Below the pieces are notes generated by a model, which did no database searches, was not told the DNA's origin, and was given only the letters and a program-made list of their open reading frames with translations. A stretch of DNA of 64,000 nt from Gudongella oleilytica (GTDB taxonomy: Bacteria > Bacillota > Clostridia > Tissierellales > Tissierellaceae), in assembly GCF_004101785.1 (NCBI RefSeq), contig NZ_CP035130.1, positions 930,001 to 994,000 of the forward strand, read 5' to 3'. The stretch's first letter is position 1. Every line of letters begins with the position of its first letter. This document shows, piece by piece, positions 24,086 to 55,171 of this stretch. The position numbers and the translations under genes are program-made.

Positions 24086-24187
24086 CCTGACTTTGGAAGG
24101 AAAACAAATAAAAATAAATAGCATAACTTCTAAAACCTTGAATTCTCAAACGAATTCAGGGTTTTATTTTGGAAAAACATGGTTTAA

Positions 24188-24219
24188 CTATGTACACTTA
24201 TAATCACTTATGATATAAT
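24188..24219 (+). promoter_or_regulatory. Transposase promoter
   Basis: Extended -10 TGATATAAT at 24211-24219 with a weak -35 (TGTACA, 24191-24196) 17 bases upstream, about 28 bases before the transposase ATG. Confidence 0.55.
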
Positions 24220-24247
24220 ATAAGTAAATAGGTGTTGGAGGTGCCAG

Positions 24248-26035
24248 ATGTATATCACAATCAGCGGAAAAGGAAGTCATCGCATTGTCCAGTTGCGTGA
24301 TGATCGACGAGTTCCAGGCACAGATAAAAGAAAAGCGGTCATCGTAAAAAATTATGGTAACTATGAAAAGTTGCTGGCAGAAAACCCTCATATCATTGAG
24401 GAACTGAAAGAAGAAGCAAAGCGCTTAACACGGGAAAAGAATGCTGAGTCTGCTCCAATTACCTTAACTGTGCCCACAAAAGAGATTACCTCCGCCGAAG
24501 ACGTGACGTCTTCGTTCCGTTTCGGACACGCCCTGATTCAGAACCTCTGGAGAGAACTGAAATTGGAGAAGTTCTTTGAACGATATGCTGGAAAAAGAGA
24601 TCCTGAAGAGCTAATACAAAGCATCTTCTACCTCTTGGCTAGGAGATGTACGGATCCCGGCAGTATTTACAGCTGTTATCAAGTACAGAGCCAATATGCT
24701 GGTCATACGGAACAGACTTTGGATGCACTCTATGGAGTTTTGGATATCCTAGCAGAGTCTAAAGAGGATCTCATTGAATTCCTATCTGTTTTCTTCCAGA
24801 AGAAAACGAAACGAAAGAATGGTTGCGCCTATTACGATGTCACCACTCATTCCTTTGAGAGCACCAAATGGGGTGAACTGAGAATGTTTGGTTTCTCAAA
24901 ATCCCACAAAAACAATGAAGTTCAAGTAGTTATGGGACTTCTAATTGATAACAATGGGATTCCTGTAACCTATGAACTTTTTCCTGGAAACACTATGGAT
25001 CAGTCAACTTTAACGAAGTCAGTGGAAAGACTGAGAGAGTTATATCGTTTAGAGAAGATCACAGTAGTCGCAGATAGAGGACTTAATAGTGGTACAAACC
25101 TAGGCTACCTATGCTCACAGGATCATAACTTTGTAATCAGCTATACGCTGAAACGATCCACGCAAGAGTTTAAAAAACTGGCCTTGAATCCAGAGGGATG
25201 GAAAGTGACTTCGGTAAACAAAGAGAGCGGCGAGGTTCTGACCATGGAGAAAGTGGTGGAACAAACATTGGAATACAAGACAGAAGGTCTAGCGCTGGAC
25301 GCACCGGAGGGTGCGGAAGAAGGCATAAAGAAGAAGCGTGGACGACCTAAAAAGTATCAACACCATACTGTTCCGGTGAAGATCCATCTGACATGGAGCG
25401 CTAAAAGAGCGTCGAAAGACCGCGGTGATCGGCAACGAATGCTTGAAAAACTGATGAAAAAAATGGATAAGCCTTATCAGATGAAAGCAGCGGTGAAAAG
25501 AGGGGTAAACCAGTTCTTGGAGATGGAACTGGAGACAGAAAACTGGAAAATCAGCGAAGAGAAAATTAGGGAATCTGAAAAATATGATGGATATTACGCT
25601 ATCATCACGAACAATCTAGAGTTATCAACCCTTGAAGTAGTTGAAATCTATCGTGGTTTGTGGAGAATCGAAGAGAGTTTTAGGATCATGAAGACAGATT
25701 TACAGGCGACCCCTGCTTTTGTTTGGACCGATAAACACATCGAAGGACACTTTGCATTGTGCTTTTTAGCCTTAACTATTATGAGATATCTACAGTATAA
25801 GATTGCAGATCACACTGGAGCGCAGGTATCCGCTGCAAATCTCATGGAAGCTTTGTCAGGACCTACCGTTATTACGCAGGGAACTTATCCCAGTATTACC
25901 GTAACCCCGATCAATATAAACCAGACATACCTGGACATCAGTAAGATTCTTGGCATGGCCGCACTCAGACAGAATATGACTTTGACTCAGTTTCGGAGTG
26001 CAACAAAATTGAATTTAGTGAAGAATCTAGAATAA
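24248..26035 (+). CDS. IS1634 family transposase, copy 1
   Basis: 595-residue DDE transposase of the IS4-like superfamily. The first acidic residue is probably in YYDVTTHSFES, the second in VVADRGLNSGTN, and the third in the Y(2)R(3)E(6)K-like block YRGLWRIEESFRIMKTDL. A Lys-Arg-rich insertion (KKKRGRPKKY) lies in the middle. The protein differs from copy 2 at one position seen (EFKKLALN here, EFKELALN there). Intact, so probably active. The GGAG ribosome site precedes ATG 24248. Confidence 0.95.
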   Translation: MYITISGKGSHRIVQLRDDRRVPGTDKRKAVIVKNYGNYEKLLAENPHIIEELKEEAKRLTREKNAESAPITLTVPTKEITSAEDVTSSFRFGHALIQNLWRELKLEKFFERYAGKRDPEELIQSIFYLLARRCTDPGSIYSCYQVQSQYAGHTEQTLDALYGVLDILAESKEDLIEFLSVFFQKKTKRKNGCAYYDVTTHSFESTKWGELRMFGFSKSHKNNEVQVVMGLLIDNNGIPVTYELFPGNTMDQSTLTKSVERLRELYRLEKITVVADRGLNSGTNLGYLCSQDHNFVISYTLKRSTQEFKKLALNPEGWKVTSVNKESGEVLTMEKVVEQTLEYKTEGLALDAPEGAEEGIKKKRGRPKKYQHHTVPVKIHLTWSAKRASKDRGDRQRMLEKLMKKMDKPYQMKAAVKRGVNQFLEMELETENWKISEEKIRESEKYDGYYAIITNNLELSTLEVVEIYRGLWRIEESFRIMKTDLQATPAFVWTDKHIEGHFALCFLALTIMRYLQYKIADHTGAQVSAANLMEALSGPTVITQGTYPSITVTPININQTYLDISKILGMAALRQNMTLTQFRSATKLNLVKNLE

Positions 26036-26115
26036 GTGTACAAAAAAACCGTTGGAAACGAGGTGTAAACCAGGTGTTTCCAACGGTTTTATTAATATTA
26101 AGTTCTAAAGTCAGG

Positions 26116-33592: not shown

Positions 33593-33640
33593 AAAGTATT
33601 AGTAGATAAGAAAATATATAAAAGAAAAGTTGCAATTCAT

Positions 33641-33677
33641 TATAACATATGCTATAAAGAATATAACATATGCTATA
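33641..33677. promoter_or_regulatory. Two phased palindromic operators
   Basis: TATAACATATGCTATA occurs at 33641-33656 and again at 33662-33677, each nearly palindromic about CATATG and exactly 21 bp (two helical turns) apart, 16 bp before the XRE start. Probably the binding site of that XRE protein, controlling the defence genes behind it. Confidence 0.75.
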
Positions 33678-33692
33678 ATTTGAGGTGTAAGC

Positions 33693-33908
33693 ATGGAGTT
33701 TTCGAAAATAGTGAGAAAAGTCCGGAAACAACTTAGGATGAGTCAGCAACAGCTAGCGGACGCATTATGTGTCAGCTTTGCGACTATTAATAGATGGGAA
33801 AATGGGCATGTAATACCTAGTAATCTTGCCCAAAAAAGTTTTTTTGATTTTTGTGAAAATAATTTCATTGATATTACTTCACTTAAGGAAGAGAAACACG
33901 AAGATTGA
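33693..33908 (+). CDS. XRE-type HTH regulator of the defence block
   Basis: 71 residues: one lambda-repressor HTH (VRKQLRMSQQQLADALCVSF, then ATINRWENGHV) and a short tail. It directly follows two CATATG palindromes and comes 44 bp before the IetA-like gene. Small stand-alone HTH proteins in this position commonly repress anti-phage operons; that role is inferred. Confidence 0.85.
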   Translation: MEFSKIVRKVRKQLRMSQQQLADALCVSFATINRWENGHVIPSNLAQKSFFDFCENNFIDITSLKEEKHED

Positions 33909-33951
33909 TTTTTTCAATATGTAGGGAATTTATAAACGGGAGGACGCGCAT

Positions 33952-34962
33952 ATGGCAAGAGCAGATTTGCTATGTGAATTGATAAAAAACGGTCTTATTG
34001 GTGATAATGTTAATTTTAGAAAAGCAGCTGAAGCTATTTGCGCTGAAGAACGCGCGAAGCAACATGGTGTTTTAGCAGATAAAATTGAAGAATTATTAAA
34101 AATGTCTAGCCGCCCAACAGCAAAAGAAAGTACTTCGCCTGTCATTATGAAAAATGGGGTGAATGAACAGTCTTTATTTTGGGAGAAAGCTCCTCGCAAA
34201 AGACTGGACAGATTAGTTTTGCCTTCCAATGTGATTGAATTATGTAAAGGTTTAATTGAAGAGCAAACACGTGCAGATTTATTGCGTTCATATGGCGTGG
34301 AACCAAGAAACAAACTTTTATTGATTGGGCCTCCTGGGAACGGAAAAACCTCTTTAGCTGAAGCAATCGCTGAATCGCTGATGTTACCATTCCTTATTGT
34401 TAGGTATGAGGGCATAGTCGGAGCATATCTTGGAGAGACAGCTAGCCGACTTTCCAAGCTTTTTGAATATGTGAAGACCAGAAAATGTGTGCTGTTTTTT
34501 GACGAATTTGAAACACTGGGCAAAGAACGTGGTGATGTTCACGAGACAGGTGAAATTAAAAGGGTTGTCAGTTCGCTGCTGCTTCATATAGACTCACTAC
34601 CAAGTTATGTTGTAGTCATTGGGGCAACAAATCATGAAAATTTGCTAGATAAAGCAGCTTGGCGTAGATTTCAATTGAAATTAGATTTACCTCGACCAAC
34701 TCGTTCAAATTTAGAAAAATGGTTTTCTATGTTTGAAAAGGAAAAGGATTTTGACTTTGGTATTGAGCCTAGTACTTTAGCTAAACGTACGCTAGGCTAT
34801 AGTTATGCTGAAGCAGAAGAACTGGCTTTGGAGATATACCGGCAATATATTTTACAACTACCTAATGCCTCGACAAAAACTATTTCAGAAAAAGTATTAA
34901 AACTTTGGAGCACTCAGCGAAAAAGCATAGATACATGTTCTCAAGAGGAGGCTGATGAATAA
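33952..34962 (+). CDS. ietA: AAA ATPase, IetA-like
   Basis: 336 residues. Walker A GPPGNGKT at 126-133 (K132), Walker B FFDEFE with D184/E185, and a sensor-1 type GATNH. AAA proteins of this size directly linked to a subtilase gene match the two-gene IetAS anti-phage system, first reported as a plasmid stability pair in Agrobacterium. The stop overlaps the start of the protease gene (TAATG). The ATPase probably controls access to or activates the protease upon infection. Name assigned from gene pair and sizes. Confidence 0.82.
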   Translation: MARADLLCELIKNGLIGDNVNFRKAAEAICAEERAKQHGVLADKIEELLKMSSRPTAKESTSPVIMKNGVNEQSLFWEKAPRKRLDRLVLPSNVIELCKGLIEEQTRADLLRSYGVEPRNKLLLIGPPGNGKTSLAEAIAESLMLPFLIVRYEGIVGAYLGETASRLSKLFEYVKTRKCVLFFDEFETLGKERGDVHETGEIKRVVSSLLLHIDSLPSYVVVIGATNHENLLDKAAWRRFQLKLDLPRPTRSNLEKWFSMFEKEKDFDFGIEPSTLAKRTLGYSYAEAEELALEIYRQYILQLPNASTKTISEKVLKLWSTQRKSIDTCSQEEADE

Positions 34963-37526
34963 TGCCGGAAAGACCTTTAATTCTATTCCCAACACCAGAG
35001 CAGGCTGAACGTATTAAAAGAAGAGTGCCTATACGTCCTCCTGTATATCCCTCAATAGCAAGACAATATGACAGGCTTAATCCTTATTTCAGTGTTTTAA
35101 GACAAGCTTTCCAACAAAAGGCTATTGCTATTCAGAATTCACCTGTAGGATTAAATCCGGAATTTGCTCTTGTTTTTGAAGTCGTTGGCTCTGTTGAGAA
35201 TTTTTATACTGCAGTTAAAAGAGTTGAAGGAATGGAGTGGATGTTTGAAGCATCTACAGATGAAATTGAACCGGATAATGATTTTTATAACATAGATGAT
35301 TCTGGCCAGAGAGAAGAAAGTAGTTTATCCGGAAGGGTTTACTGCATAATGTCAAACCAAGAGGCTATGAATCAATTGCTTTCTTTATGGAACAGGTATG
35401 TAGCTGGTGAAACTAGTTTGTTTGAACGTGGATTTGCCGGCTTAAGGGATGTTTTTGTTCATATCAAAACTATTAGACCATGGGGTCCAGAAGACAGAAT
35501 CCATGAAACAAATGTTATGGAATATTGGAAAGAAAGCCTCGAAATACAAGGGGATCAGGAAGTTCCCTTTGAGATTGAATTGTTTTTTAGGGATGATCCT
35601 ACTAAGCGCAGGGTTGCTTATGAAACAGTAAGACGAGCTGTTGTTGAACTTGGGGGAGTCGTACGCAGCCAATGCGAAATTGAATCAATTAACTATCATT
35701 CAATGCTTGTTCTTCTTCCAAGACAGCAAATTCAATTACTCGTAGATACTTATGATCAAATTTCCATTGTTACTATTGATGATATTATGTTTTTTAGACC
35801 CGTTTCACAAGCTGTAGTAAAAGGATATGAGGATAGTTCAGCTTTAGATATAGATTCAGATCGAGTAGATATTCAACCCGATACGAATCCAATAATTGGT
35901 ATTTTTGATGGCATGCCAGTTCAAAATCATAGACTTTTATCGGGAAGGTTGATAGTGGACGACCCGGACAATTATGAAAATAATTACTTAGAAAAATATC
36001 GATGCCATGGAACGGCGATGGCTTCATTGATAATATATGGAGATTTAAGCAGAAATGATCAGGTACATAATCACAAGGTTTATTTTCGACCCGTATTAAA
36101 ACCTGTTTTAGATTTTTGGGGAAATGCAATTGAGCGAGTGCCAACAGATATAATCTTTGTTGATGTTATTCATCGTGCTGTAAGGAGAATATTTGAAGGA
36201 GAGGGAGCAACTCCTGCGGTAGCTCCTACTGTAAAAGTCATTAATATTTCTATCGGAGATCCGGTAAGGCAACTTACAAGTATTATGAGCCCTCTTGCAC
36301 GACTGTTAGATTGGTTAAGTTTTAAATATAAAGTATTATTTATTGTGAGTGCTGGAAACCAGAATACCGGAGGACTTAATATAGGAATTTCTTTTGATGA
36401 ATTTAAGGGGTTAACACAAGAACAACGAAATGAGCGAATCTTTTCACATCTGAAAGATGAGATACGTAATCTTCGCGTTTTATCTCCTGCTGAAAGTATA
36501 AATAGTTTAACTATAGGAGCCTTGTATAAAGATGCATGTCAGGTGATGGAAAACGAAAGGCAGGCAGCAGCTGTAAGCGATGGATTACCAAGCCCGGTAT
36601 CTTCGTTTGGATTAGGCTATAATCGTGCCATAACCCCTGATTTGTACTACTATGGGGGTAGAAAGTTTTTAATACGCTCAATAGATGGTGGACTTAGATG
36701 GCCTATAAGTGGCAGGGAGCCAGGATGTAAAATTGCAGCACCATATGGAGATGGTGCAGAATCAGGACAAGCCTTTTCATTTGGGACGAGTGATGCTGCT
36801 GCTCAGATTACTCATGAAGCTGGTAAGTGTTACGATGTCCTCAATGAAATATTCTTTAATGAAACAGGCAATTCGATTCCGAATAATTATACCGCAATAT
36901 TATTAAAAGGTATGTTAACTCATGGAGCATCATGGGATACTTGTGCAGATGAATTATCGAAGCTGACACAGTTGCCTCCTAATAGACTTCATCGTTGGTT
37001 GGGAAATGGAGTTCCAGATATTTCTCGTGTGATGGAGTGCACCAATAGGAGAATTACTCTGATTGGTTTAGGGGGTTTGAAGCCAGATGAGGCGCATGTA
37101 TATACTCTGCCGTTACCGTTTGACTTTTCAGCACAACTTGTAAAAAGAAGGTTAACAGTAACATTAGCATATTTTTCACCTATATCCCCAGCCAAACAGA
37201 GATATCGTACAGCACAAATTTGGTTTGAGATTGAGCAGCCACATGAACTGTTTTCCACCCGTCAGAATACAGATTGGAACAGTGTTCGCAGAGGAACATT
37301 ACAACATGAGATTTTTTCTGGAGAAAATGCAGTTGTATGGGATATTGAAGATAGCATAAAGATTAAAGTCAATTGTAAAAAAGATGCTGAAAATCGCAAA
37401 GAAACAGTGGCATACGGTTTGTTTGTAACCTTTGAAGTAGCAGAAGGTCTGGATGTAGATGTTTATACAAGTGTCGTTAATAAAATACGGCAAGCGGTTC
37501 CTATCACTACACTTGGCCGAGCATAG
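34962..37526 (+). CDS. ietS: Subtilisin-like serine protease, IetS-like
   Basis: 854-residue S8 protease with complete catalytic triad: D316 (IFDGMP), H349 (CHGTAMA), S610 (FGTSDAA), and oxyanion N466 (SAGNQN). About 300 residues precede the protease domain and about 200 follow it. No signal peptide is seen, so it works inside the cell. It is translationally coupled to the AAA ATPase gene. In IetAS both genes are needed for defence; the substrate of the protease is not known to me. Confidence 0.85.
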   Translation: MPERPLILFPTPEQAERIKRRVPIRPPVYPSIARQYDRLNPYFSVLRQAFQQKAIAIQNSPVGLNPEFALVFEVVGSVENFYTAVKRVEGMEWMFEASTDEIEPDNDFYNIDDSGQREESSLSGRVYCIMSNQEAMNQLLSLWNRYVAGETSLFERGFAGLRDVFVHIKTIRPWGPEDRIHETNVMEYWKESLEIQGDQEVPFEIELFFRDDPTKRRVAYETVRRAVVELGGVVRSQCEIESINYHSMLVLLPRQQIQLLVDTYDQISIVTIDDIMFFRPVSQAVVKGYEDSSALDIDSDRVDIQPDTNPIIGIFDGMPVQNHRLLSGRLIVDDPDNYENNYLEKYRCHGTAMASLIIYGDLSRNDQVHNHKVYFRPVLKPVLDFWGNAIERVPTDIIFVDVIHRAVRRIFEGEGATPAVAPTVKVINISIGDPVRQLTSIMSPLARLLDWLSFKYKVLFIVSAGNQNTGGLNIGISFDEFKGLTQEQRNERIFSHLKDEIRNLRVLSPAESINSLTIGALYKDACQVMENERQAAAVSDGLPSPVSSFGLGYNRAITPDLYYYGGRKFLIRSIDGGLRWPISGREPGCKIAAPYGDGAESGQAFSFGTSDAAAQITHEAGKCYDVLNEIFFNETGNSIPNNYTAILLKGMLTHGASWDTCADELSKLTQLPPNRLHRWLGNGVPDISRVMECTNRRITLIGLGGLKPDEAHVYTLPLPFDFSAQLVKRRLTVTLAYFSPISPAKQRYRTAQIWFEIEQPHELFSTRQNTDWNSVRRGTLQHEIFSGENAVVWDIEDSIKIKVNCKKDAENRKETVAYGLFVTFEVAEGLDVDVYTSVVNKIRQAVPITTLGRA

Positions 37527-37763
37527 AAATTTGGAAGAAACCAAGTGTATTTGCTTATACACATTTAATCTTTTTGGGGATGTATGTTTTATGTATAGAC
37601 ATAAAGACGAATGTTCTGTTGAAGTGATTTGCTACGAGCAAGTTCATGTTCAAATTTAAAACTAAACTGAGAATTATTATTACTAAGAATTCGTTAATAA
37701 TTAGGAGAAGAATCCTTATTATCTATGTTTGAAGAGTATAGTTATTGAGGCAGGAGGAATACA

Positions 37764-40700
37764 ATGTCCGAAATAGGTAAACGAGGTAGTTCTCGACGAA
37801 AAGGTGATGAATACCAAGACCTTACTGCTCTGCGGCTGGCCTTGGAAGCATATATTGACCGTAAACCCTTCGAAATGTTTTTGGAGTACGAAAAATCTGG
37901 CAACCTTGATGACATCGTACTTTTCCAGGGATCCGATATCTTTGCCCATCAAGTGAAGTATGCTGTTAACTCGCTCGAAAACTACGAAATGGTTGACTTC
38001 CTTAATCCAGACAGTCCAGTCAGCATTAAGAAATTTGCTACGAGCTGGCAATTTTTAAAACAGCGGTTCCCTGATCGCAGGCTTACTGTATGTTTATGCT
38101 CAAACAGGGGTTTGGATAGCGCTCTCTTTGATCTTGTGAATCCGGAAGGGACATTTAAACGTGAGGTTATCGAAAACCGCAAACGTGGCGATGCTAAAAA
38201 ACTACGATTGGACCTGGCCTCGGCCTCAGGCCTTGATACAGACTCATTCAAAGCATTTTTGACAGATTTCTGGTTTGTACTCCGACAGCCGACTCTATCG
38301 GAGCTGGAGCAATATATCCGAACGGTTCTTCTTGACAAGGAATTGGGCTTATCGGATAATACTATTTTTTTAGATCTTAAGGATGCCATTAAAAACAATG
38401 CAATTTTCTCGCGTGAAGCAATTACTTCCCAATCTATTGACAGTCTATTAGAGCGAGTCCAGAGCAAGTTGCTTATTCCTCAGGTATTTCCTGTAAACCA
38501 AGACCACTTCGTAGAACAGAAGTCTCTTTCAGAGCAACTTGACAAGGTGTTGCCACACATTAACGGTGGATATTTGATTGTTACCGGACTTCCTGGCAGC
38601 GGGAAATCTACATCGCTGACTATGTACTTCGATGCGCTTAGCACTTCTATGTATGAAGTGTTCAGATACTACTGTTTCGTCGGAGTCAATGATAACGCCC
38701 AAAGAATGCGTGTCCAGGCTGAAAGCCTCCGTGCCAACCTTCTGAGTGAGTTCCACCGGAGATACCCGGATGTCCTCAAAAGACGTTTTGATTATAGCGA
38801 ACGTAACTTCTTCGAATGCCTGGTAACACTGGCCAAGTTCTTTGTAGATCATGGCCGCCGATTCGTTATTCTCCTTGATGGATTGGATCACGCTGAACGA
38901 CTTGAACCGGAAATAAGAGAAACGGTGATATCGGCTTTGCCCTCGGATGTTCCTGAGGGGGTTACCATAGTTGTTGGTACACAAGAATTACATAAGTGGC
39001 CATACTTTCTTAAGCGAGCGAGAGAATGCCCGGACAGTCACATCAAGATGCCGCTATTTTCGGAAACCGAGACGCGCGAGTATCTGGAAAATAAACGGGG
39101 CATTTCAGGCCTGACACATGCTGACATTGTAGAGATTCACAAGAGGAGTGAAGGCCTACCCCTATATTTGCGGTATGCGGCTGAAATCCTCATCTCAAGC
39201 GAGTCGTTAGCGGAGGCCATTGCTTCTCTAACTCCGGCCTCAGGTGGGGATATTCGCAATTACTATGGGCTTCTCTGGGACGAGTTTGAGCGAGTTGGTA
39301 TGGGGGAGGCAAAACACCTGTGTGCAGCTATGGCTTGTATGCGCTTTAGCGTGCATAGGGATGAACTCTATAAGATTGCGGCACTTAATCGGCCAGCTTT
39401 TGAAGATGCTTACAAATGCATCTCCCACTTGCTGCGCGATTTTGACTGTAGATTGACTGTTTTTCACAACAGCTTCCGTGAGTTCGTGATTAGTCAGGTG
39501 TCTGACGACTGGATTAAGGAGATAAGAAGTAACATCTGTACCTTCCTAAAAGATAACAAGGATTCTCCTCGCTGGTTTGGCCACGTTTTTAAATACTGCT
39601 ATGACGCTGAAGATTACGCATATGTTCTTGATGAAGTTAACGAAGAATTCGTGGATCGCGCATTGCTGCATTGCCGGCCAGCCGCGGAAATTCTGGATGC
39701 GATACACTGGGCCATAGAAGCAGCATTCAATCGGCAAGATATAGTTCAACTTAGTCGTCTCGGAGCACTGAAGTTTAGAACTGGTGACCGCCTTGAGAAC
39801 AACCTCAATCGAGCCTTACTTGCAGATGCTCTTCTCGCTCTGGGCAGGGAACAAGACGTAATCGCCTTTGCCTATTCGCTAGAGGCGGATCACTGGCTTG
39901 TGGACAGTCGCACCTCACTTGCGGTTATGTATAGGCTGGCCGAATCAGGGAAATTGGAGCTTGGGCGGCGGCTTTTTGATGTTTTCACAAACGAGTTCAG
40001 AGGCATTCATTCTGACAATGCAGAAGAAGTAAGGTCGCAGGTTGTAGGTATAGCACGATGCTTAGGCATTTATAGGGAGAATCAGGTACGTCCGCTGCGA
40101 TGGCTTGCGCAATTCAACTTCTCCCCCGGGATTCTGGAACAACAGGACTTATATGCCCCGGGCTACAGCCCTCACTTGGATGCCTATATTGATACGCTTG
40201 TTAAATTCGGATTTTCAGACAAGTGGAAGCGGCTCAAGCGTGTGAAAAGAATATTTCCAAGCAGATTGGTGCGGTATCTGATAATCCGTGCTCTTGCTCG
40301 CTACAACCTAATCGATGACCTGCGGACTGACGTGTCTGAGTACTGGGAACAGGAGCAGCCTTCTGGCAATGTCGAGCTTGCTTTCTACGCTGCCAAGGCA
40401 GGTATGCCGGCTTCCGAGGTGACTGCCATTGCTGGCACTATTGAAGCCCCAAAGGCGGCAGTACCTGCTTACGTTTCCCCGAGCAACCCGATGCTTAGGC
40501 AGTATGTATACACTTTCATTGTTGTTGCTTATGAGGGTAACGAGGAAGCCTATGCAAACCTCTTCGCTACGGTCGGCATAGCTCGAACACTTTGGAACGC
40601 GGCTCTTAGACATTTGCTTGTAGCCAGTCACTGTATCGGGCAGTCGTTGCGAGGTACTGATCATGATTGGTATGAAGAAGCGCGGCAGAGTATCAACATA

Positions 40701-43700
40701 CTTGTCCAGGCTGAACAAGGAGAAGGCGAAAGAATTTTCGAGTCGATTGAGCTAATTAGAGAAGTACTGCAGTTGTCTATCGGCCTTCTTACTGAGCAGG
40801 TACAGAAGTATTTTCCAGAGCGTCTGAGTGAATGGGTCATGGGCTTGGATTCCCTTCGTGACTCTATACTATGGAACACACATTTCGGAATAGGGGAATC
40901 CCGTCAAGATTATGGTTTTGAGCTTCGGATTTGGGAAACCCTTGCGAGAATTCCGCAAGTGGGCACCAGGCTCGCTCCAATTTTGAGAAGTTGTGCCGAA
41001 ACCTATGAGAAGTCAACCTTGCTTAAAGGTGGTTCCCGTTCGGATCATTTCATTTGGCTTTCAGCGATTATGGCTAAGTGTGGTATGCGTGATGATGCCG
41101 AAAAGTGGCTCCGCTATGGCATACGCTCATCGCAAATATATGGGTATCACAAGGATGTCACCCTTTTACACTTGATCGACATCCTTAATCTCGTCAATCA
41201 GCGTCAGCCTAAATTGGCACTTGAACGGTGTGCTCGCGTGCTGTCAATGGTGGACTGGATGCCACATCTTACGGATGGCAGGGAGACCAAGTGGTTTCCC
41301 CAGAAAGCTTTCGCGGCCGTTTTAAAAGTTAATCGGCAGGCCGCGTTTGATTTGCTAACTCATTTCTCACGGTCTATAGCAAGATGGAAGATGCAGGATT
41401 GCCTTGAGGAATACATTCTTAGTATGGAAGAGGGCGACCCCGAGTACCTCTGGTGTCTCACGGAGCTCTTTGCCAATCACTTTAGCGAAGATGGTAGGCA
41501 TTGTAATCAAATTATGGAAACCAGGCAGCACATCATCGATTTGGTGCACGAATCCTGTTCAGTAGAAATTTACAATGAATTCGAAAACCGCTTCCGACGT
41601 TTCATACTAACGGAGATCACACCTAGGCACTGGCCCGAAGACCTGAAGAAAGAGCTCGGCATCCCTGGTAGCACTAATGTTAAGAACGACAATGCTGACT
41701 CATGGGCTAAGCCACCATCAGAGTTCAAACTGGATGGTGAAAGCATAACCATTGAAGGCATAGCTGAGAAATGCCGGGTATCATTTGCTGAGTTTCTGAA
41801 GACGATTGACAAGCTGAAGAACCAGAATGAGCATTTTTACGAACGGGATCTAGTAAATACCTCTTTAAGACATCACATAACGACTGCCAAGACATTAGAA
41901 GACCTCATATCGATCAAGGAATATGCTGAGCCTGAAGGTCGCTGGCAGGATGCAACTGTAATTGAACAATTAGCTGAACGTTTTGTGGAATTCGGAGATC
42001 ATGTTAACGCCATATCGTGCTTCGGGATAGCATACGCTTGCTATGGAAGCTGGTCCCGTTGGCGAGATAACAGAAAATATCTGGCGGCAGCAGCGGCAAG
42101 GGACAGACAAACTGCGAAGAAGTTTGTCCTAAAGGAATGCTATGAATCAACATGCGGTTCCGGTGGTGGCTATGATACACCGCCTATTGCGGCTTCTGGA
42201 CTGGATGTGCTGGATGAACCTCAAATGCTTGAGGATGTATTCAATGACTTCCTGACGCATTGTGAAAGCATGTTTGCGCAATTGCCTAAGAATGATAACT
42301 ATGCATGGCTGAAAGAGTACAAGGAACCGTCCGCCGATGCCAACCAGCTCATTCTTAATTTTGTTGTGGACGAGTTGTCGACTTCTGAGATTGATCACGG
42401 CGAGAGATTGATCAAGGCAGTGACGAAGTTGGCGATTGCCAGACCCGATGAGGCAATACCTGTGCTTATTACCAGGATGGTATCAGCTTCCGGAAGGATT
42501 CTGCGTCGTTTGCTGACGGTATTTTACTGTCTTGCTACCCATTGTCCCCAGCTCTTGGTGCCGCACCAGCAGGTGTTCGCCCAAATTCTTGAGAGGGAGG
42601 ACTTTTTCTGCCGTCAAACAGTTCTGCGTATTCTTCGCCGTGTGGACGAAGCTTCTCCTCTTGAAGCTTCCGTTAACAGTTCTGTCCAGCGTATAGATAA
42701 GAATTACTCAGATGCCATATATTATTCGTCGTATATACTTCCGTCTTGTTCTACTCCTGAATTCAAGCATTTTCTAAAACGAAACACCCTGTTTGATTTT
42801 TCCAAGCAGGTAGAGTTGATGGAGAAAATTCTTCAAGTACCTCCGGGGAATCTTGTGGCTGCCATTGAAGAACGACTGATTGCCCAAAAATGGTCGATAG
42901 ATGATGAGAGAGACCGTGTAAAAGATGACTGGTACGGCCATGTACATCCGCAGGGCTGGCCTGTTGTCTGGATTACAACCGAATTTCAGGAACTTGTTAC
43001 AGAGACTCTTTGGGGCATACTGGACGAAGTGGCTATAAAGCTGAAGATGAGCAAAGAACAGATTAACTGGCTCTGGCAGACAATCCAGCCTGCCGATCCG
43101 GAATATGTTTTCCGTGGTTTAATGCCGCGCCCTCTAGACATCGAGCCACTTAATGTCCATGACAAAGAGGCCTGGTTCAGCGAGCTGGACGCGTTCAAAT
43201 CTCTGGAAATTGGAGATACAAGAATCCAGGGTGATGATGGAGAATGGATAACAATATTTGAGAAGCGGAGAATGGCTCAGGAAGAAACGTACAATGTTCC
43301 ATATAGACAAGAGATCTCCCTGCAAGGATTTCTGATCCCTCGACAGGTGTACGGTGGATCCTATAGGTTAGATGAACTTGAATTATGGACCGAGAGAATC
43401 CTCCCAAATTCCTCAATGTCTGTCACAATTAAACAGACTCAGATAGAACTATCTGGTAGAGGACACAGAGTCTTGGAAAAGTCAGACGAATGTATCCCCA
43501 TTATCGCCGAGCACGAGAATCCTTTAACTTTTTTGGGGTACTTAAATGTGTGTACTCTGACCTCTTTCATCATAAAGGAATTCAATCTGTCGTTTGAAGG
43601 GTTGAATCTTCTCAGAAATGGCGAAGTTGTTGCCAAGTATGAGGCATGGCAGGAAGGCTACCAGGATGAGTGTTACACACGGGAGAAATTGTCACTTGGC

Positions 43701-43868
43701 TTTAGACTTCGGGTGCGCCAAGACTTCTTAACCGAGATTTGTCGTTGTTATCGCAAATTACTGTGTATTTGTATTGATGAAAAACGGGAGTATTACGAGT
43801 CTATTTACCGTCCAGAACCTAATGATAGTCGATATTCAAGACGATATGTATTGTATTATTTGAGCTAA
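37764..43868 (+). CDS. Avs-like protein: Cap4-type nuclease plus STAND NTPase
   Basis: 2034 residues. The N-terminal 200 residues look like a Cap4/DUF4297 dsDNA nuclease: E16, the DD pair at 49-50 and Q63-V-K65 fit a PD-(D/E)XK active site. An NTPase core follows with Walker A GLPGSGKS at 275-282 (K281) and Walker B VILLDGLDH (D372, D375). The remaining 1500 residues are helical and repeat-like. Order and size agree with Avs-type (antiviral STAND) proteins, in which the long C-terminus recognises a phage protein and tetramerisation activates the nuclease. Start ATG 37764 behind CAGGAGGA, 237 bp after ietS. The exact Avs class cannot be told by eye. Confidence 0.78.
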   Translation: MSEIGKRGSSRRKGDEYQDLTALRLALEAYIDRKPFEMFLEYEKSGNLDDIVLFQGSDIFAHQVKYAVNSLENYEMVDFLNPDSPVSIKKFATSWQFLKQRFPDRRLTVCLCSNRGLDSALFDLVNPEGTFKREVIENRKRGDAKKLRLDLASASGLDTDSFKAFLTDFWFVLRQPTLSELEQYIRTVLLDKELGLSDNTIFLDLKDAIKNNAIFSREAITSQSIDSLLERVQSKLLIPQVFPVNQDHFVEQKSLSEQLDKVLPHINGGYLIVTGLPGSGKSTSLTMYFDALSTSMYEVFRYYCFVGVNDNAQRMRVQAESLRANLLSEFHRRYPDVLKRRFDYSERNFFECLVTLAKFFVDHGRRFVILLDGLDHAERLEPEIRETVISALPSDVPEGVTIVVGTQELHKWPYFLKRARECPDSHIKMPLFSETETREYLENKRGISGLTHADIVEIHKRSEGLPLYLRYAAEILISSESLAEAIASLTPASGGDIRNYYGLLWDEFERVGMGEAKHLCAAMACMRFSVHRDELYKIAALNRPAFEDAYKCISHLLRDFDCRLTVFHNSFREFVISQVSDDWIKEIRSNICTFLKDNKDSPRWFGHVFKYCYDAEDYAYVLDEVNEEFVDRALLHCRPAAEILDAIHWAIEAAFNRQDIVQLSRLGALKFRTGDRLENNLNRALLADALLALGREQDVIAFAYSLEADHWLVDSRTSLAVMYRLAESGKLELGRRLFDVFTNEFRGIHSDNAEEVRSQVVGIARCLGIYRENQVRPLRWLAQFNFSPGILEQQDLYAPGYSPHLDAYIDTLVKFGFSDKWKRLKRVKRIFPSRLVRYLIIRALARYNLIDDLRTDVSEYWEQEQPSGNVELAFYAAKAGMPASEVTAIAGTIEAPKAAVPAYVSPSNPMLRQYVYTFIVVAYEGNEEAYANLFATVGIARTLWNAALRHLLVASHCIGQSLRGTDHDWYEEARQSINILVQAEQGEGERIFESIELIREVLQLSIGLLTEQVQKYFPERLSEWVMGLDSLRDSILWNTHFGIGESRQDYGFELRIWETLARIPQVGTRLAPILRSCAETYEKSTLLKGGSRSDHFIWLSAIMAKCGMRDDAEKWLRYGIRSSQIYGYHKDVTLLHLIDILNLVNQRQPKLALERCARVLSMVDWMPHLTDGRETKWFPQKAFAAVLKVNRQAAFDLLTHFSRSIARWKMQDCLEEYILSMEEGDPEYLWCLTELFANHFSEDGRHCNQIMETRQHIIDLVHESCSVEIYNEFENRFRRFILTEITPRHWPEDLKKELGIPGSTNVKNDNADSWAKPPSEFKLDGESITIEGIAEKCRVSFAEFLKTIDKLKNQNEHFYERDLVNTSLRHHITTAKTLEDLISIKEYAEPEGRWQDATVIEQLAERFVEFGDHVNAISCFGIAYACYGSWSRWRDNRKYLAAAAARDRQTAKKFVLKECYESTCGSGGGYDTPPIAASGLDVLDEPQMLEDVFNDFLTHCESMFAQLPKNDNYAWLKEYKEPSADANQLILNFVVDELSTSEIDHGERLIKAVTKLAIARPDEAIPVLITRMVSASGRILRRLLTVFYCLATHCPQLLVPHQQVFAQILEREDFFCRQTVLRILRRVDEASPLEASVNSSVQRIDKNYSDAIYYSSYILPSCSTPEFKHFLKRNTLFDFSKQVELMEKILQVPPGNLVAAIEERLIAQKWSIDDERDRVKDDWYGHVHPQGWPVVWITTEFQELVTETLWGILDEVAIKLKMSKEQINWLWQTIQPADPEYVFRGLMPRPLDIEPLNVHDKEAWFSELDAFKSLEIGDTRIQGDDGEWITIFEKRRMAQEETYNVPYRQEISLQGFLIPRQVYGGSYRLDELELWTERILPNSSMSVTIKQTQIELSGRGHRVLEKSDECIPIIAEHENPLTFLGYLNVCTLTSFIIKEFNLSFEGLNLLRNGEVVAKYEAWQEGYQDECYTREKLSLGFRLRVRQDFLTEICRCYRKLLCICIDEKREYYESIYRPEPNDSRYSRRYVLYYLS

Positions 43869-44070
43869 GTGCCATGATACCAGCAGTAACAAGTACCCAA
43901 TTTACCATCTATAGTTTTTAAAAAAGCGGAATTCTTACAGAGAGCCGAGATGTGTTGGTATCTCATAGTTGTTTCGATGATAAGTTGGGATGACTGTAAG
44001 TTATTTTTTGGAGACACTTACCATCTTTTTTGGTGTATTTTACTGAGCAATTTATCTATTCCATACCATC

Positions 44071-44299
44071 AACACACGTTGAGACGGTCGTATTGATGTC
44101 AAGGATTGAGAAGTGAGTATGTGGAAAGGGCTTGAAATAAGGGCTTTCCGGAGTTTGAACGGTAAAATTGGATAAGCAATAATCGTGAAAATATCTTTTC
44201 ATGGAAACAAGTCAAAAGGCATGATTTTGAACGTGACAGAGCGATTTAGATAACATGGGTTTGTGTGTGGTCGATTTAGATGTTTTGTAAAAAACGGAG
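44071..44299 (+). repeat. Dispersed repeat of about 230 bp, copy 1
   Basis: Starts at AACACACGTTGAG and matches 59284-59513 in the same orientation with roughly 80 percent identity; the stretch TGATTTTGAACGTGACAGAG is identical. No reading frame is shared. The surrounding gap 43869-44378 shows nothing else. Confidence 0.85.
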
Positions 44300-48842: not shown

Positions 48843-49310
48843 TTATTTAATGACTCAATGTGGGTATTTTGTATTACTCAACATCAATTGTAACACTATC
48901 AAGATGGAAAACTTCCTGCCCAATAGTGTTAAAATTACCTTTGATTTATTCCCCAAACCATAGTTAATTTTGATATGTTTCCATCTACGAGCTTGGATGT
49001 GTGTGTTCCCAACAAAAACAGGGATTGAAAACGTACTTTTGATAGCTATCAATTCAACTCAAAACATGTGGAAACCGTCGTGAGGATCGAACGTGTGAAT
49101 ACTGATGGATAGAGAGCTTGGGGCACTTGGGAAATCTTCTGATTTTGGGTTACCCTTGAGTGTATAAAAAAGATATTCGGTAAAAACGGGCATGAATAGA
49201 AAATTGAGTATAAATCTTGCATAAATTCTTCTTAGGGAATAAAATAACGATAACGATATTTACCAAGCAGTACAGGTATTGTAAATCATAAAAAGTTGAG
49301 GTTGAATTTT

Positions 49311-50523
49311 ATGACACAGACTGAACTTGAAATCATCCTTCAAGAGGGTGAAAGATATAAAGTTGAATTCAAAGAAAGTGTGGATAAGAACCTTGTGGAA
49401 GAAGTATTCGCTTTTGCAAATGCATCCGGCGGACGTATATTTATAGGTGTTGATGACAATGGCAAAATTACTGGTACTGATATCAGTAATACCGTCCGTT
49501 CCCGTATCCAGGACACGCTAAGGCAGATTCAACCGGACTAAACTGTAAAACTTGATGTTTTTAATAATATTATCATCATCCTGTCAGTGCCAGAAGGAAA
49601 GAAAAGTCGTACAGTTGCTCAAAGGGATTTTTCCTCAGAGTCGGCCCGAATTCTCAAAAGCTTGGTCGAAATGAAATTATTGCTTTTATACAGTCAGAAG
49701 GAAAAACTTATCTAACAAATGCGGGAGTGCTTTTTTTAAAAGAGACTATGAAATATATTCCGCAGGCTCAAGTGATATGTGCTTTATATAAAGGAACCGA
49801 AAAGATAACAGTTCTTGACCGGAAAGATTTGATTGGCGATTTGGTTACTATTATTGATGAAGCCATTTTATTTCTTAAGAAGCATTTAAACTTGAGATAT
49901 GAAATCAAAGAAATACGTAGGAAAGAGATTCTTGAAATACTTGAAATAGCAATCAGGGAAGCGGTTGTCAGTGCAGTTTGCCACAGGGATTATTTTGAAA
50001 AAGGGGCCAATGTGATGGTTGAGATTTTTGATGACCAGGTTGAAATCAGCAATCCTGGTTCCCTTCCTCACGGTATGACTTTAGAAGACTTCGGAAAGAA
50101 GAGTATAACGAGGAATCCTATCATTGCTTCCCTATTACACCATATTCACTATATAGAAAAAATGGGGACAGGCATCAACAGGATGAGGGAAGCCTGTAAA
50201 GAAGCTGGAATACCTGAACCGGAGTTTGAAATAACAGGCTTTTTCACAATTTTATTCCGCAGAAAAACTTCGGGAAACTTCGGTATAAATATCGGTATAA
50301 ACATCGGATTAAATGAAACTCAAATGAAGATTACTGAACTTATGAAATAAGACAGCAGAATAACAACAGTTGGACTTTCTAAAATTTTGAAAAATTTTTG
50401 GTATATCAAAAAGAAAAAAGAAATATAGAGGCAAACATATCAGATTTAAAAAAGAAAGGAATTATTGAGAGGGTTGGTTCAAGAAAAAACGGGTATTGGG
50501 AAGTAAGGGAAAATGGAATATAA
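49311..50523 (+). pseudogene. Broken AlbA/Schlafen-domain ATP-binding regulator
   Basis: The N-terminal part (49311-49541) is an AlbA_2 domain (YKVEFKESVDKNLVEEVFAF, then ANASGGRIFIGVDDNGKI). It meets a stop at 49539-49541, the reading continues in the same frame to about 49617, then shifts frame and resumes as GFFLRVGPNSQKLGRNEIIA up to 50350 (GHKL-like ATP-binding part: PGSLP and GTGINRM segments). Pieces of the C-terminal winged helix (ISDLKKKGIIERVGSRKNGY) follow up to 50523 after further breaks. At least three disabling changes, so inactive; it overlaps the next gene's start. Confidence 0.85.
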
Positions 50524-53437
50524 TGAGCTTTTCGAAAAATACCAGAAGCTGCTGGAGGAAAATCAAAGGTTAAAAAATGAAAATGAGGACTATAGGAAAC
50601 GGCTTGGATTGCCAGTGACATCACCCTATATAAAAAATGATGCTCAAGCCTCAATAGAGATAAATAACATCCAGGCAGTTGAGGTAGTCAAACCAGGATA
50701 TGTAACCAATAGTAGCTCCCCGGAGGATAAAATTAACCTGTTTATGTCATTGTTTAGAGGCAGGGATGATGTCTATGCAAAAAGGTGGCAAAACAAAGAG
50801 GGTAAATCGGGGTATTCTCCTGTATGTTTGAATGAGTGGGCAAGAGGATTTTGTAATAAGCCAAGGATTAAATGCTCCGAATGCGATAGTAGAAATTATG
50901 CAAATTTTGACTTTGCAGCAATAGACAAGCATCTCAGGGGCAAAGATGTTTTTGGCATATATCCTATGCTACCGGATGAAACCTGCTATTTCCTCGCTAT
51001 TGATTTCGATGATGAAGGCTGGGAAAAAGATATATCAGCCATGAGGGATATCTGTGCAGAAAAAAATATTCCATTTGCAGTTGAACGTTCTCGTTCAGGG
51101 AATGGAGCGCATGTATGGTTCTTTTTTGATGACAAGGTGAGCGCTGCGTCGGCCAGAAAATTTGGTACAGCACTTCTTACACATGCTATGGTTAAAAGGC
51201 ATGAAATCAAATTTTCTTCATATGACCGCTTGTTTCCAAATCAGGATACACTTCCTAAAGGTGGTCTTGGGAATCTCATCGCATTACCTTTACAATTAAA
51301 TGCTCGAAGAAACAACAACAGTGTTTTTATAGATGAAAACCTCCGGCCCTATGAGGATCAATGGAGTTTTTTGAGCACTATTCGAAAGCTCAGTGAAAGT
51401 GAAATTGACCTATATATTTCGCAACTATGCAGTGGCAGTGAATTGGGTGATTTAAGGCAGAATGAAGATGAAGAATGCAAGCCATGGGAGAGAAGCAAGA
51501 CAAATTATAAATTATGCAAGTCTGATTTTCCTGACACTGTTTATATAACCAAAGCAAATATGCTTTACATTAGTAAAAATAGCTTTTCACATAAAGCATT
51601 GAATATTATTAAACGTATGGCAGCCTTTAAAAACCCTGACTTTTATAAGGCTCAAGCTATGAGATTGCCGACTTTTGATAAGCCAAGAATTATTTCCTTA
51701 TCTGACGAGACGCCTGAGTACTTGTGTCTTCCAAGGGGATGTGAGCTTGATCTGATAAACCTGTTTAATGTTCACAAGGTGGATGTCAAATGGATTGATA
51801 AAAGCTATTCAGGAAAACAGATTGACGTTGAATTCAACGGCCAGCTTCGTGATGAGCAGGAAGATTCTGTTAATTCAATGATACAATATAACATCGGTGT
51901 ATTATCCGCAACGACTGCATTTGGCAAAACCGTTATCGGAGCGAAAATTATATCAGTAAAAAAAGTAAATACTCTTATACTTGTTCATACTCAGCAATTA
52001 TTAGAGCAGTGGAAGGAGCGTTTGAACCAGTTTCTCGTAATCAGAGAAGCCCTTCCTTCTGAAGAAATTAAGAATAGAGGCAGAAAAAAGAGCAGAAGTA
52101 TTATTGGTCAGATAGGGGGAGGAAAAAACAATCTAAGTGGCATCATTGATGTTGCTATCATGCAGTCATTGGTAAAGGGAGATGAGGTTAAGGACTTTAT
52201 CCGCAACTACGGCATGGTGATAGTAGATGAATGCCATCATGTTCCGGCATTTAGTTTCGAACAGATATTAAAAAACGTGGATGGCAAATATGTTTACGGA
52301 TTAACAGCAACCCCGGTAAGGCAGGACGGACACCACCCCATCATATTCATGCATTGCGGTCCGGTCAGGTATAGAGTGGATGCCAGAAAACAAGCTGAAA
52401 AAAGACCTTTTGAGCATTATGTCATTCCGCGCTTTACTCCTTTCAGAAAACCTATCGGCCAGGATGAAAAGGAATGGTCTATTGGACAAATTTATGCTGA
52501 AATCAGCACCAGTCAGATCCGTAACAAATTAATCGTAGATGATGTTATTGAAAGTGCAAATGAGGGCCGCAATCCCATTGTTCTAACTGAAAGAACTGCA
52601 CATGTTGAAGTGATTGCAAGCTCTTTAAAGGAAGTACTCCCGAATGTTATTACATTAACAGGAGGTATGTCTGCAAAGGAAAGAAGAGCTGCGCTTGAAA
52701 GACTTTCAAGTATACCGGAAGAGAGTAATTTTGTCATAGTTGCAACCGGCAAATTTGTTGGCGAGGGTTTTGACGAACCAAGACTTGATACTTTGTTTCT
52801 TGCAATGCCTGTAGCCTGGAAAGGTACAGTTCAACAGTATGCGGGCAGGCTCCACAGATTATATCAGAATAAGAGTGAAGTTCAGATTTATGATTATGTG
52901 GATGCACATGTAGGTGTACTTGAAAGAATGTATCAAAAAAGATTGAAGGGATATGCCTCTATCGGATATTCGGCTAAGGGTGACAGCAGGTCTTTTGAAT
53001 CTATTAATACGATTTTTGACAATAGCAACTTCCTAACAGTTTTCAGTAATGATATTACGTCTGCTAAATCAGACATTGTCATTGTCAGTCCTTATGTTAC
53101 TAAAAAACGTTTAGATCAGATGTTAAGTATTTTTATGACCGGGATTAACAATGGTGCAAAGCTTACCATCATTACCCTGCCTGAAACAGATTATAAGGAA
53201 AGGGACAGGCTTACCTTTGAGGAGATGATTAGTTCTATAAAGAATACAGGAGCCAGTATTATTTTTAAATCAAATATCCATCAAAAGTTTGCGGTGATTG
53301 ATCAGAGGATTGTTTGGTATGGCAGCATAAATCTTTTGAGCTTTGGAAATTCCGAAGAAAGTATCATGAGGTTGGATAGCCTGAGTATTGCAAATGAATT
53401 AATAGGTACGCTTGATGAAATACTAAATCAAACATAA
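50513..53437 (+). CDS. TOTE-type primase-helicase-phospholipase D protein
   Basis: 974 residues. Short coiled coil at 1-30; archaeo-eukaryotic primase domain (about 70-300) with D164-x-D166 (AIDFDDE), SGNGAHVW at 195-202 and GNLIALPLQ; superfamily 2 helicase with K472 (TTAFGKT), DECH at 572-575 and the QYAGRLHR motif; C-terminal PLD-type nuclease with one H923-x-K925 motif (HQKFAVID) and WYGSIN. This is the architecture of proteins annotated as TOTE conflict system primase/helicase, proposed to act against invading nucleic acid. First gene of a likely three-gene operon. Start ATG 50513; its beginning overlaps the decayed regulator. Confidence 0.88.
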   Translation: MEYNELFEKYQKLLEENQRLKNENEDYRKRLGLPVTSPYIKNDAQASIEINNIQAVEVVKPGYVTNSSSPEDKINLFMSLFRGRDDVYAKRWQNKEGKSGYSPVCLNEWARGFCNKPRIKCSECDSRNYANFDFAAIDKHLRGKDVFGIYPMLPDETCYFLAIDFDDEGWEKDISAMRDICAEKNIPFAVERSRSGNGAHVWFFFDDKVSAASARKFGTALLTHAMVKRHEIKFSSYDRLFPNQDTLPKGGLGNLIALPLQLNARRNNNSVFIDENLRPYEDQWSFLSTIRKLSESEIDLYISQLCSGSELGDLRQNEDEECKPWERSKTNYKLCKSDFPDTVYITKANMLYISKNSFSHKALNIIKRMAAFKNPDFYKAQAMRLPTFDKPRIISLSDETPEYLCLPRGCELDLINLFNVHKVDVKWIDKSYSGKQIDVEFNGQLRDEQEDSVNSMIQYNIGVLSATTAFGKTVIGAKIISVKKVNTLILVHTQQLLEQWKERLNQFLVIREALPSEEIKNRGRKKSRSIIGQIGGGKNNLSGIIDVAIMQSLVKGDEVKDFIRNYGMVIVDECHHVPAFSFEQILKNVDGKYVYGLTATPVRQDGHHPIIFMHCGPVRYRVDARKQAEKRPFEHYVIPRFTPFRKPIGQDEKEWSIGQIYAEISTSQIRNKLIVDDVIESANEGRNPIVLTERTAHVEVIASSLKEVLPNVITLTGGMSAKERRAALERLSSIPEESNFVIVATGKFVGEGFDEPRLDTLFLAMPVAWKGTVQQYAGRLHRLYQNKSEVQIYDYVDAHVGVLERMYQKRLKGYASIGYSAKGDSRSFESINTIFDNSNFLTVFSNDITSAKSDIVIVSPYVTKKRLDQMLSIFMTGINNGAKLTIITLPETDYKERDRLTFEEMISSIKNTGASIIFKSNIHQKFAVIDQRIVWYGSINLLSFGNSEESIMRLDSLSIANELIGTLDEILNQT

Positions 53438-53455
53438 TGAAGAGAGAGATGAAGC

Positions 53456-55171
53456 ATGGGTGTATTAAGTTATAAAGAATTTATGGAAGAAGTAAGGAGC
53501 CGTTTAAGAAATCTTTCTACAGAAGATTTCCGAAACCTGATATTGAACTGGGCCAGCGAAGAACATCCTTCAGGAAGACAAGAGTTTTTGGGCAAATTAA
53601 TGCATTTGAGGCAGAATGAAGAAGTTATTTCCAATGAGGATACGCTGATGGATGAGATAGAAGCTTTTGCACAGAGAGTGGAGAATGGTGAATATTGCGA
53701 TGGATGGGGCTGGGATGATGCTATCCAAGAGGAAAGAGATTGGGGTGACGAAAGCTGGGCAGAGGAAATGGACGAGTTTTTTCTGCAAGCAAGAAAATTA
53801 TTGCTGCGAGGGAAATATAAGCTGGCCGAAGCTGCATATAGAAGGTTATTCGATATATTGGAGATGGGATGGGAACCGGGGCATCTTCCTGGTGATCCGG
53901 ATTACAGCAATATGTTAAAAACGGATATAGATGAGCAGGTTGCACTCTTTCTGAGATCCGTATATATGAATTCCGCTTCCAAAGAGAGGCCCGCTTCGCT
54001 GTATAGATCAATGAATGAATATGGATATCTGGCCCATGGAATCAAACTAAAAAATATTATGGATGCCTTAGACTCTGTGTTACCGAATTTTGATGCTTTT
54101 CTAACAAATTGGATTGAATATTTGAAAAGTGAAAGTCAGATAAATGTCAGCGAGTTACTGAGGGAAGCTGTTTTTATTAAGGGGGGTATCCCGGCTATTT
54201 CTGAGTTTGCAAGGCAATATGCAGCGAAATATCCTAAAGCATATTTGGATTGGATTGCGGATTTGGAGATGGAAGACGATAAAGATTCAGTTATTCAGGT
54301 TGCCAGAGAAGGATTGTCCAGAATTCCTCGGGATTATGCGGTAAGGGCTAAAATAGCAGAAGCCATTTCAAGGATAGGAGAAAGATTGAATGATAATGAG
54401 CTGAAACTGGAAGGGTATAGGGAAAGCTTTTATTCCGATCCTTCTATAGGATATTTACTTGACTTATATATTAGTGCTATTGAATGTGCTTGCTTTGAAG
54501 AAATTCAAGATGAAGCTGAACAAAGGGTGATGGAACTTCAAGGTAAAGGTAGGATACCTGAAAGCAACTACCACAATAGAGAGCAAAGTGCATCTTTTGC
54601 AACCGAAGGAGTATTATTCAATACTTTGCTTCTAAGTGGAAAGTATGAAAAGGTATTTGAAATGTGCAAAGGCAAAGGTCCCCTTGGATGGAGCTCCAGT
54701 GAGAATCCCAAACCATTGTTTGTTACTTTTATGATGGCAGTTTTATCAAAGGAAGGAATGCATTCAAAAATTCTTTGCAAACAATGGGAGGATGCTATTA
54801 AAAATACAAGTGATAATGCAAATAAGGAATATATTGAGAAGTACCTAAAGGTTACTGATTTTATAAAAAAGTCTATAAAGCTAACCAAGGAACAAGAAGA
54901 ATTTTATTTAAAATGGTGTAGGGATGAGATAGGACACCGGGTAGATGCAATTGTCAGTAACCAGCATCGAGGGAGTTATCATAAAGCAGCCGGACTATTG
55001 GTCGCAATGGCAGAGGTTTTAGCGAACAGAGAGGAAAAGCAGGAGGGTATGGATTTCATTGAAAGATATAGGAGCAAATATCCCCGGCATTCAGCCTTCA
55101 AAAGCGAGATTACCCAGGCATTACAGGCGTCAGGGTTATTTAATATAAAAATGTCCGGGGAATGGAGGTAA
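53456..55171 (+). CDS. Alpha-helical repeat protein linked to the TOTE gene
   Basis: 571 residues, almost entirely helical, with TPR-like segments (for instance about 105-135: FLQARKLLLRGKYKLAEAAY, and about 385-410). No catalytic motif, no membrane segment. A Trp/Asp/Glu-rich acidic stretch lies at about 82-105 (CDGWGWDDAIQEERDWGDES). It starts 18 bp after the TOTE gene and ends 29 bp before the next frame. I know similar proteins only as hypothetical; a scaffold or sensor for the primase-helicase is plausible. Confidence 0.75.
   Translation: MGVLSYKEFMEEVRSRLRNLSTEDFRNLILNWASEEHPSGRQEFLGKLMHLRQNEEVISNEDTLMDEIEAFAQRVENGEYCDGWGWDDAIQEERDWGDESWAEEMDEFFLQARKLLLRGKYKLAEAAYRRLFDILEMGWEPGHLPGDPDYSNMLKTDIDEQVALFLRSVYMNSASKERPASLYRSMNEYGYLAHGIKLKNIMDALDSVLPNFDAFLTNWIEYLKSESQINVSELLREAVFIKGGIPAISEFARQYAAKYPKAYLDWIADLEMEDDKDSVIQVAREGLSRIPRDYAVRAKIAEAISRIGERLNDNELKLEGYRESFYSDPSIGYLLDLYISAIECACFEEIQDEAEQRVMELQGKGRIPESNYHNREQSASFATEGVLFNTLLLSGKYEKVFEMCKGKGPLGWSSSENPKPLFVTFMMAVLSKEGMHSKILCKQWEDAIKNTSDNANKEYIEKYLKVTDFIKKSIKLTKEQEEFYLKWCRDEIGHRVDAIVSNQHRGSYHKAAGLLVAMAEVLANREEKQEGMDFIERYRSKYPRHSAFKSEITQALQASGLFNIKMSGEWR

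Follow-up and report, generated by a model that had tools for sequence, protein, structure and literature searches.

A small XRE regulator as a probable portable control head of Firmicutes defense operons, seen from an element-borne IetAS block in Gudongella oleilytica

The silencing and switching-on of bacterial defense operons are poorly known, and the general regulators described so far, BrxR and RptR, are mainly proteobacterial. BrxR/CapW is a WYL-domain protein that belongs to a single family found before diverse defense systems and is rare in Firmicutes, with 6 homologs in 607 genomes (PMC9122601), and RptR is a small repressor encoded by the first gene of a type I restriction-modification (R-M)/DarTG2 island, where several short palindromes cover the -10 box; its fold lacks close structural homologs, it binds TAGCTA and it is conserved in Gammaproteobacteria (PMC12255303). 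Here we analyze a stretch of 64,000 nucleotides, hereinafter the window (G000:C1:930001-994000), from the 2.36 Mb, single-contig genome of Gudongella oleilytica, in which the gene of a small XRE protein, P0001, precedes the IetAS anti-phage system and a giant Avs3-like protein. P0001 is similar to RptR in its position and logic and to BrxR in the diversity of the systems served, but is a member of neither family; its 71 amino acids contain helix-turn-helix (HTH) domains only, and no WYL domain was found. No description of such an XRE family was found in the open-literature full texts that were searched.

We propose, with a probability of roughly 0.6, that P0001 is a portable autorepressor that heads defense operons in Firmicutes, and that the block behind it is cargo of an integrative and conjugative element (ICE) located at the 3' end of rlmD. 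Because the same family, with the same upstream half-site, heads unrelated defense operons, the regulator would be a portable control element and not an IetAS component. The evidence tilts, by a little more than even odds, towards the broader view that this unnamed family of small XRE proteins, whose operator is TATAGCA/TGCTATA, commonly serves as a mobile control head of at least seven kinds of Firmicutes defense operon (type I, type II and type III R-M, BREX, DarTG, Mza and IetAS) and is found, in addition, as a fusion with an HmaA-like helicase. With one such family and its readable operator, the defense islands of Firmicutes would have a common switch, and the operator could serve to find new defense operons. 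If this is the case, the family may let incoming elements de-repress their defenses upon entry and may cross-regulate several operons within one cell.

The relatives of P0001 were collected from 381 genomes of the class, where 34 places in 32 genomes matched with E 1e-8 or better. Of these, 25 are stand-alone genes, 23 of which, without G195 and G066, entered the set, and 9 are fusions, of which L145 alone was read. An independent draw of 378 genomes gave 18 rows with 5 new stand-alone relatives. L204 to L210, which are fused, broken or unplaced, stand outside the 30 relatives examined, and L125 was dropped as the same place as L144. With downstream genes assigned by PADLOC and Pfam, 22 of the 30 stand-alone relatives head defense genes. 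Twelve precede type I R-M genes (L127, L128, L131, L132, L135, L137, L141, L199, L200, L201, L202 and L203); in L201, other genes intervene, and L141 was assigned from an N6_Mtase match (E 1.3e-66) and a weak REase_I match. Four head IetAS, namely, those in the window, L019, L078 and L079, the latter two recognized by phmmer comparison with the window proteins, and two head type II R-M (L136 and L138). Single cases precede BREX (L126), DarTG (L129, where DarG was scanned), type III R-M (L139) and Mza (L144). All 5 new stand-alone relatives from the independent draw head type I R-M. Among 20 size-matched other XRE genes taken as a control, 13 had a testable downstream open reading frame (ORF), and none of the 13 matched PADLOC. 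The HTH alignment of 21 family members contains seven invariant residues, with the core SF(S/A)T(V/I)NRWENG. No relative of the regulator was found in viral contigs, and the search of plasmids returned only 2 weak records.

The operator signal is conserved along with the protein. The twin palindromes before the HTH gene, reported in the original prediction, are real: TATAACATATGCTATA, with up to 2 mismatches allowed, has 2 matches in the window, compared with an average of 0.07 in shuffled sequence, and none of 100 shuffles reached 2. L019 retains the 21-bp spacing, though one of its sites carries mirror-image base changes. Within 130 bp upstream of each gene, the half-site TGCTATA/TATAGCA is present in 23 of the 30 relatives vs 0 of the 20 size-matched XRE genes from the same genome set (Fisher 2e-8), and the 6-mer GCTATA/TATAGC in 27 of 30 vs 2 of 20 (Fisher 1e-8). 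When the set is thinned at a similarity ratio of 0.75 between proteins, 19 of 24 relatives still have the 7-mer (Fisher 3e-8) and 21 of 24 the 6-mer; 3 of the 5 relatives from the independent draw have the 7-mer as well. As a general background, 8 of 437 upstream regions have the 7-mer; in 26 family regions, the observed number of 21 compares with a mean of 1.6 in their first-order Markov resamples. The full dyad at short spacing occurs in only 8 of the 30 relatives, so the arrangement of half-sites varies; in many loci, a half-site sits on the -10 box. The candidate promoter in the window is omitted by a consensus scan because the scan rule demands T at the last -10 base.

Table 1. Features of the block and of the adjoining end of its host element (window coordinates; aa, amino acids)
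Feature	Coordinates	Strand	Basis
Serine-recombinase triplet of host ICE, 555, 326 and 544 aa	29304..33534	+	Pfam Resolvase/Recombinase/Zn_ribbon_recom
Candidate promoter TTGCAA-17-TATAAA, overlapping operator site 1	33630..33658	+	read from sequence
Putative operator site 1, TATAACATATGCTATA	33641..33656	+	
Putative operator site 2, TATAACATATGCTATA, 21 bp from site 1	33662..33677	+	
HTH gene (P0001), 71-aa XRE (HTH_3) regulator, proposed autorepressor	33693..33908	+	PF01381 E 4e-12, family alignment
IetA, AAA ATPase	33952..34962	+	PADLOC PDLC04232 E 1.3e-143
IetS, S8 (subtilase) protease	34962..37526	+	PADLOC PDLC04233 E 1.5e-303
Stretch common to elements with the giant behind AbiE, not IetAS	37728..44098	+	blastn 97 (L017), 94 (L018) percent
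Giant, 2034-aa Avs3-like protein: Cap4-type nuclease, STAND NTPase, helical-repeat part, C-terminal part without assigned fold	37764..43868	+	
ICE right terminal segment, conserved in four elements	43869..44072	+	alignment of window, L017, L018, L019
11-bp att repeat CACACGTTGAG, right end, within rlmD 3' remnant	44073..44083	+	same 11-mer at intact rlmD 3' end

The four genes of the block (Table 1) lie on the same strand, in the positions given by the original prediction. The start of ietS overlaps the end of ietA by 1 base, and 237 bp separate ietS from the giant gene. The assignment to IetAS made in that prediction agrees with the PADLOC matches, which span residues 1-327 of the 336 of IetA and nearly the full length of IetS. 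Thus, the pair shares with the IetAS system an AAA ATPase, an S8 protease, overlapping genes and full-length model matches, and differs from IetAS as known in its XRE head, its location in a serine-recombinase ICE and its scores far under the cut-offs of the narrower NCBIfam IteA and IteS equivalogs (213.2 of 510 and 79.6 of 900 bits). In IetA, the Walker A and Walker B motifs start at residues 126 and 180, respectively, and the catalytic triad of IetS, D316-H349-S610, is kept in 8 of 8 aligned relatives. A sequence search of solved structures returned no match to IetS. Among plasmids, IetS has 91 records, every one of less than 60 percent identity, and among viral contigs, it was found in one, L095. 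The genome of the window contains a second, weak IetS-like match (E 1e-12; G000:C1:703730-704593), which phmmer did not recover.

The giant is, judging by its structural models, Avs3-like but not Avs3. The earlier description of it as an Avs-like protein with a Cap4-type nuclease and a STAND module stands, and no curated Avs family matches it from end to end: Avs1b scores 120.8 of 1500 bits, over residues 224-757 only. In PADLOC, residues ~9-225 match Cap4/LmuA/SAVED-effector nuclease models, and Avs1b is matched only at 240-742, in the NTPase part; in Pfam, NPHP3_N and AAA_22 are above the cut-off and Cap4_nuclease is below it. The STAND motifs GxPGSGKST (Walker A) and LDGLDHAERL (Walker B) are present in 9 of 9 sequences that have the region, and D49-D50 and Q63-V64-K65 of the nuclease stretch, together with Walker A and B, are conserved in relatives down to 49 percent identity. 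The best Foldseek match for the first 840 residues is Avs3 (8dgc; E 1.3e-10), on which model residues 6-675 align with Z 12.7 over 417 positions. Residues 2-218 superimpose on Cap4 7yib with Z 11.6, 162 aligned and a root-mean-square deviation (rmsd) of 3.3, consistent with an N-terminal effector domain. Avs proteins carry a TPR-like sensor that binds a phage terminase or portal; in the giant, the remainder of the model is a helical solenoid (predicted confidence, pLDDT, ~60) that matches assorted helical-repeat proteins, and the C-terminal part is modeled at very low confidence. Like Avs3 of the AVAST systems, then, the giant appears to combine a Cap4-type nuclease, a STAND NTPase and a long helical part at nearly the same size (2034 vs 2028 aa); unlike Avs3, it lacks a curated Avs model over its length and a sequence match to a solved Avs chain, the search of solved structures by sequence having given nothing beyond chance. 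Relatives of 95-97 percent identity were found in 3 other genomes among 391 of the class. The plasmid search gave 34 records, 0 of which cover 80 percent of the query, and the search of viral contigs found no relatives.

The host element resembles the streptococcal ICEs that carry triplets of serine integrases in one orientation and may have genes between the triplet and the target gene; there, the triplets target mutT, traG and hsdM, and single integrases target rumA, whereas here a triplet element sits at rlmD/rumA (PMC4701971). The middle recombinase (326 aa) has no Resolvase-domain match. The similarity among the window, L017, L018 and L019 stops at one place, window ~44083-44098 by blastn, and in the four-locus alignment, all share a terminal segment of ~200 bp, after which the genomes differ from one another. 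Beyond this end, all four genomes encode the tail HVE(T/C/S)(V/I)V (translated for the window, L018 and L019, and read by eye from the DNA of L017), which is the 3' end of rlmD (rumA). Hence, the right end adjoins an rlmD remnant in the window genome and in three others. The intact rlmD lies at genome positions 898787-900106 (TIGR00479, 378.7 bits vs a cut-off of 183.55), and the 11-mer CACACGTTGAG occurs at 900066, at the rlmD 3' end, at 974073, the end of the block (window 44073), and at window 59286. A direct repeat is thus found both in rlmD and at the far end of the element, as in a serine-recombinase ICE at rlmD. The flanking repeats indicate an element no larger than 74 kb, with the block within it and beside its right end, and the whole 74 kb is probably one ICE. 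The original prediction put the block just outside an ICE end; it is instead cargo within the ICE, between the recombinase triplet and the right end. The empty-site search with the flank right of the ICE end, in 30 relatives, gave partial matches.

Additional remnants of the rlmD 3' end lie past the ICE end, at window 49065-49110 and 59286-59330, which suggests elements stacked behind the ICE, one of ~5 kb with BlaI/BlaR-like genes and one of ~10 kb with a TOTE-type gene. The latter region, at 50513-55171, encodes an AEP-TOTE primase/helicase/PLD protein (Pfam E 1e-106) and, after it, a TPR protein; it is a candidate conflict system of the next element. A transposase unit resembling an insertion sequence (IS) is present twice, at 24086-26115 and 56475-58504, in opposite orientation and 99.75 percent identical, with one copy inside the ICE.

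Under the proposed mechanism, P0001 would, most likely, bind both TATARCATATGYTATA sites across the promoter of its own gene and repress a co-transcribed run of HTH-ietA-ietS, possibly including the giant by read-through. Induction would come with the entry of the element into a naive cell or with the loss of the repressor. IetA might then engage a target altered by the phage and permit protein cleavage by IetS, and the giant might sense a phage protein with its helical part, assemble through the STAND module and cut DNA with the Cap4 domain.

Several observations weigh against this reading. Eight of the 30 relatives have no recognized defense gene downstream. They are L130, L133, L134 and L143 and, in front of a LuxR-like 7TM gene, the four similar loci L140, L142, L122 and L124; that gene was scanned in L140, called by like sequence in L142, and called only by HTH and upstream similarity in L122 and L124. 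The 7-mer is lacking in 7 of the 30, and part of its signal could reflect promoter strength because TGCTATA overlaps the extended -10 box. The gap between ietS and the giant contains a single promoter-like site, at chance level, so that separate transcription of the giant is possible. For the giant, the AlphaFold models made from 8 and 9 sequences are weak (mean pLDDT 57 and 60), and the Avs3 superposition has an rmsd of 32.6. Finally, P0001 may act as an activator, as do R-M controller (C) proteins, which are likewise small XRE proteins encoded by the first gene next to tandem dyads.

The last point leads to the best surviving alternative, which we consider unlikely although worth serious thought, namely, that the regulator is a branch of the C proteins, activating at low dose and repressing at high dose through two tandem sites and so holding back the effector while the element establishes itself. 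The small HTH_3 protein in the first position, the two dyads 21 bp apart at the promoter and the many relatives that precede R-M genes all fit this scheme. However, P0001 matches the PADLOC control-protein model PDLC03665 only with E 0.018, the majority of partner systems belong to type I R-M or lie outside R-M, and the half-sites often sit on the -10 box.

Distinctly less probable is the idea that the four genes form one layered defense unit, in which IetAS and the giant are selected together and functionally share the operator. L019 (G261) has the order recombinase fragment, HTH, IetA, IetS and giant with the same 237-bp gap, 93-98 percent identical to the window, and the gap has no terminator-like site; nevertheless, these two loci can share one recent ancestor. 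In L018 (G082), this recombinase stands ahead of an ABC-3C pair, AbiEi, AbiEii and the giant, and L017 (G055) has the same AbiEi-/AbiEii-like genes and the giant, the genes there being named by matching sequence starts. The upstream side of the giant can be read in 7 loci: IetS lies there in 2 (window and L019), AbiEi/AbiEii in 2 (L017 and L018), and the remaining 3 (L025, L026 and L029) have other genes. Conversely, across the 22 IetS loci read (the window and 21 of 23 fetched), a giant lies downstream in 2, and none was seen in the other 20, some of which end at a contig edge. These neighborhoods reject a conserved IetAS-giant partnership, and with it the conserved neighborhood of ietAS with Cap4-STAND genes that the original prediction proposed to look for. 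A P0001-like HTH gene directly precedes ietA in 4 of the 22 (window, L019, L078 and L079), and serine recombinases precede 5 (window, L019, L078, L087 and L088, the last two recognized by eye from RVAAY(C/A)RVS). The sequence common to the four giants of the element family begins just 36 bp before the start codon; therefore, no private promoter travels with the giant gene. In L018, similar stretches at 5180-5250 (GTTCGTAAAGAG) and 7925-7965 (TTTCGTAAAGAG), noticed by eye, precede the ABC-3C pair and AbiEi, respectively, and AbiEi might control both.

The remaining alternative, that the half-site is only a strong extended -10 promoter and the link to defense a chance gathering in defense islands, is the least credible because, although TGCTATAAT fits the extended -10 consensus, the size-matched XRE genes of the same genomes have neither the 7-mer (0/20) nor PADLOC matches in testable downstream ORFs (0/13), and the other TGNTATA variants are much rarer in the family (TGATATA in 4, TGGTATA in 1 and TGTTATA in 5 of 25).

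The XRE domain also occurs within larger proteins. In L205, L206 and L207, it is fused to a protein of ~1200 aa, which in L205 is an HmaA-like SNF2 helicase by PADLOC, with an HmaB-like methylase adjacent; GCTATA is found upstream of L205 and L207, and TATAGC upstream of L206. In L145 (2067-2957), the domain is fused to DUF3990 in a protein of 296 aa, and nine matches in the P0001 search are of about this fused size.

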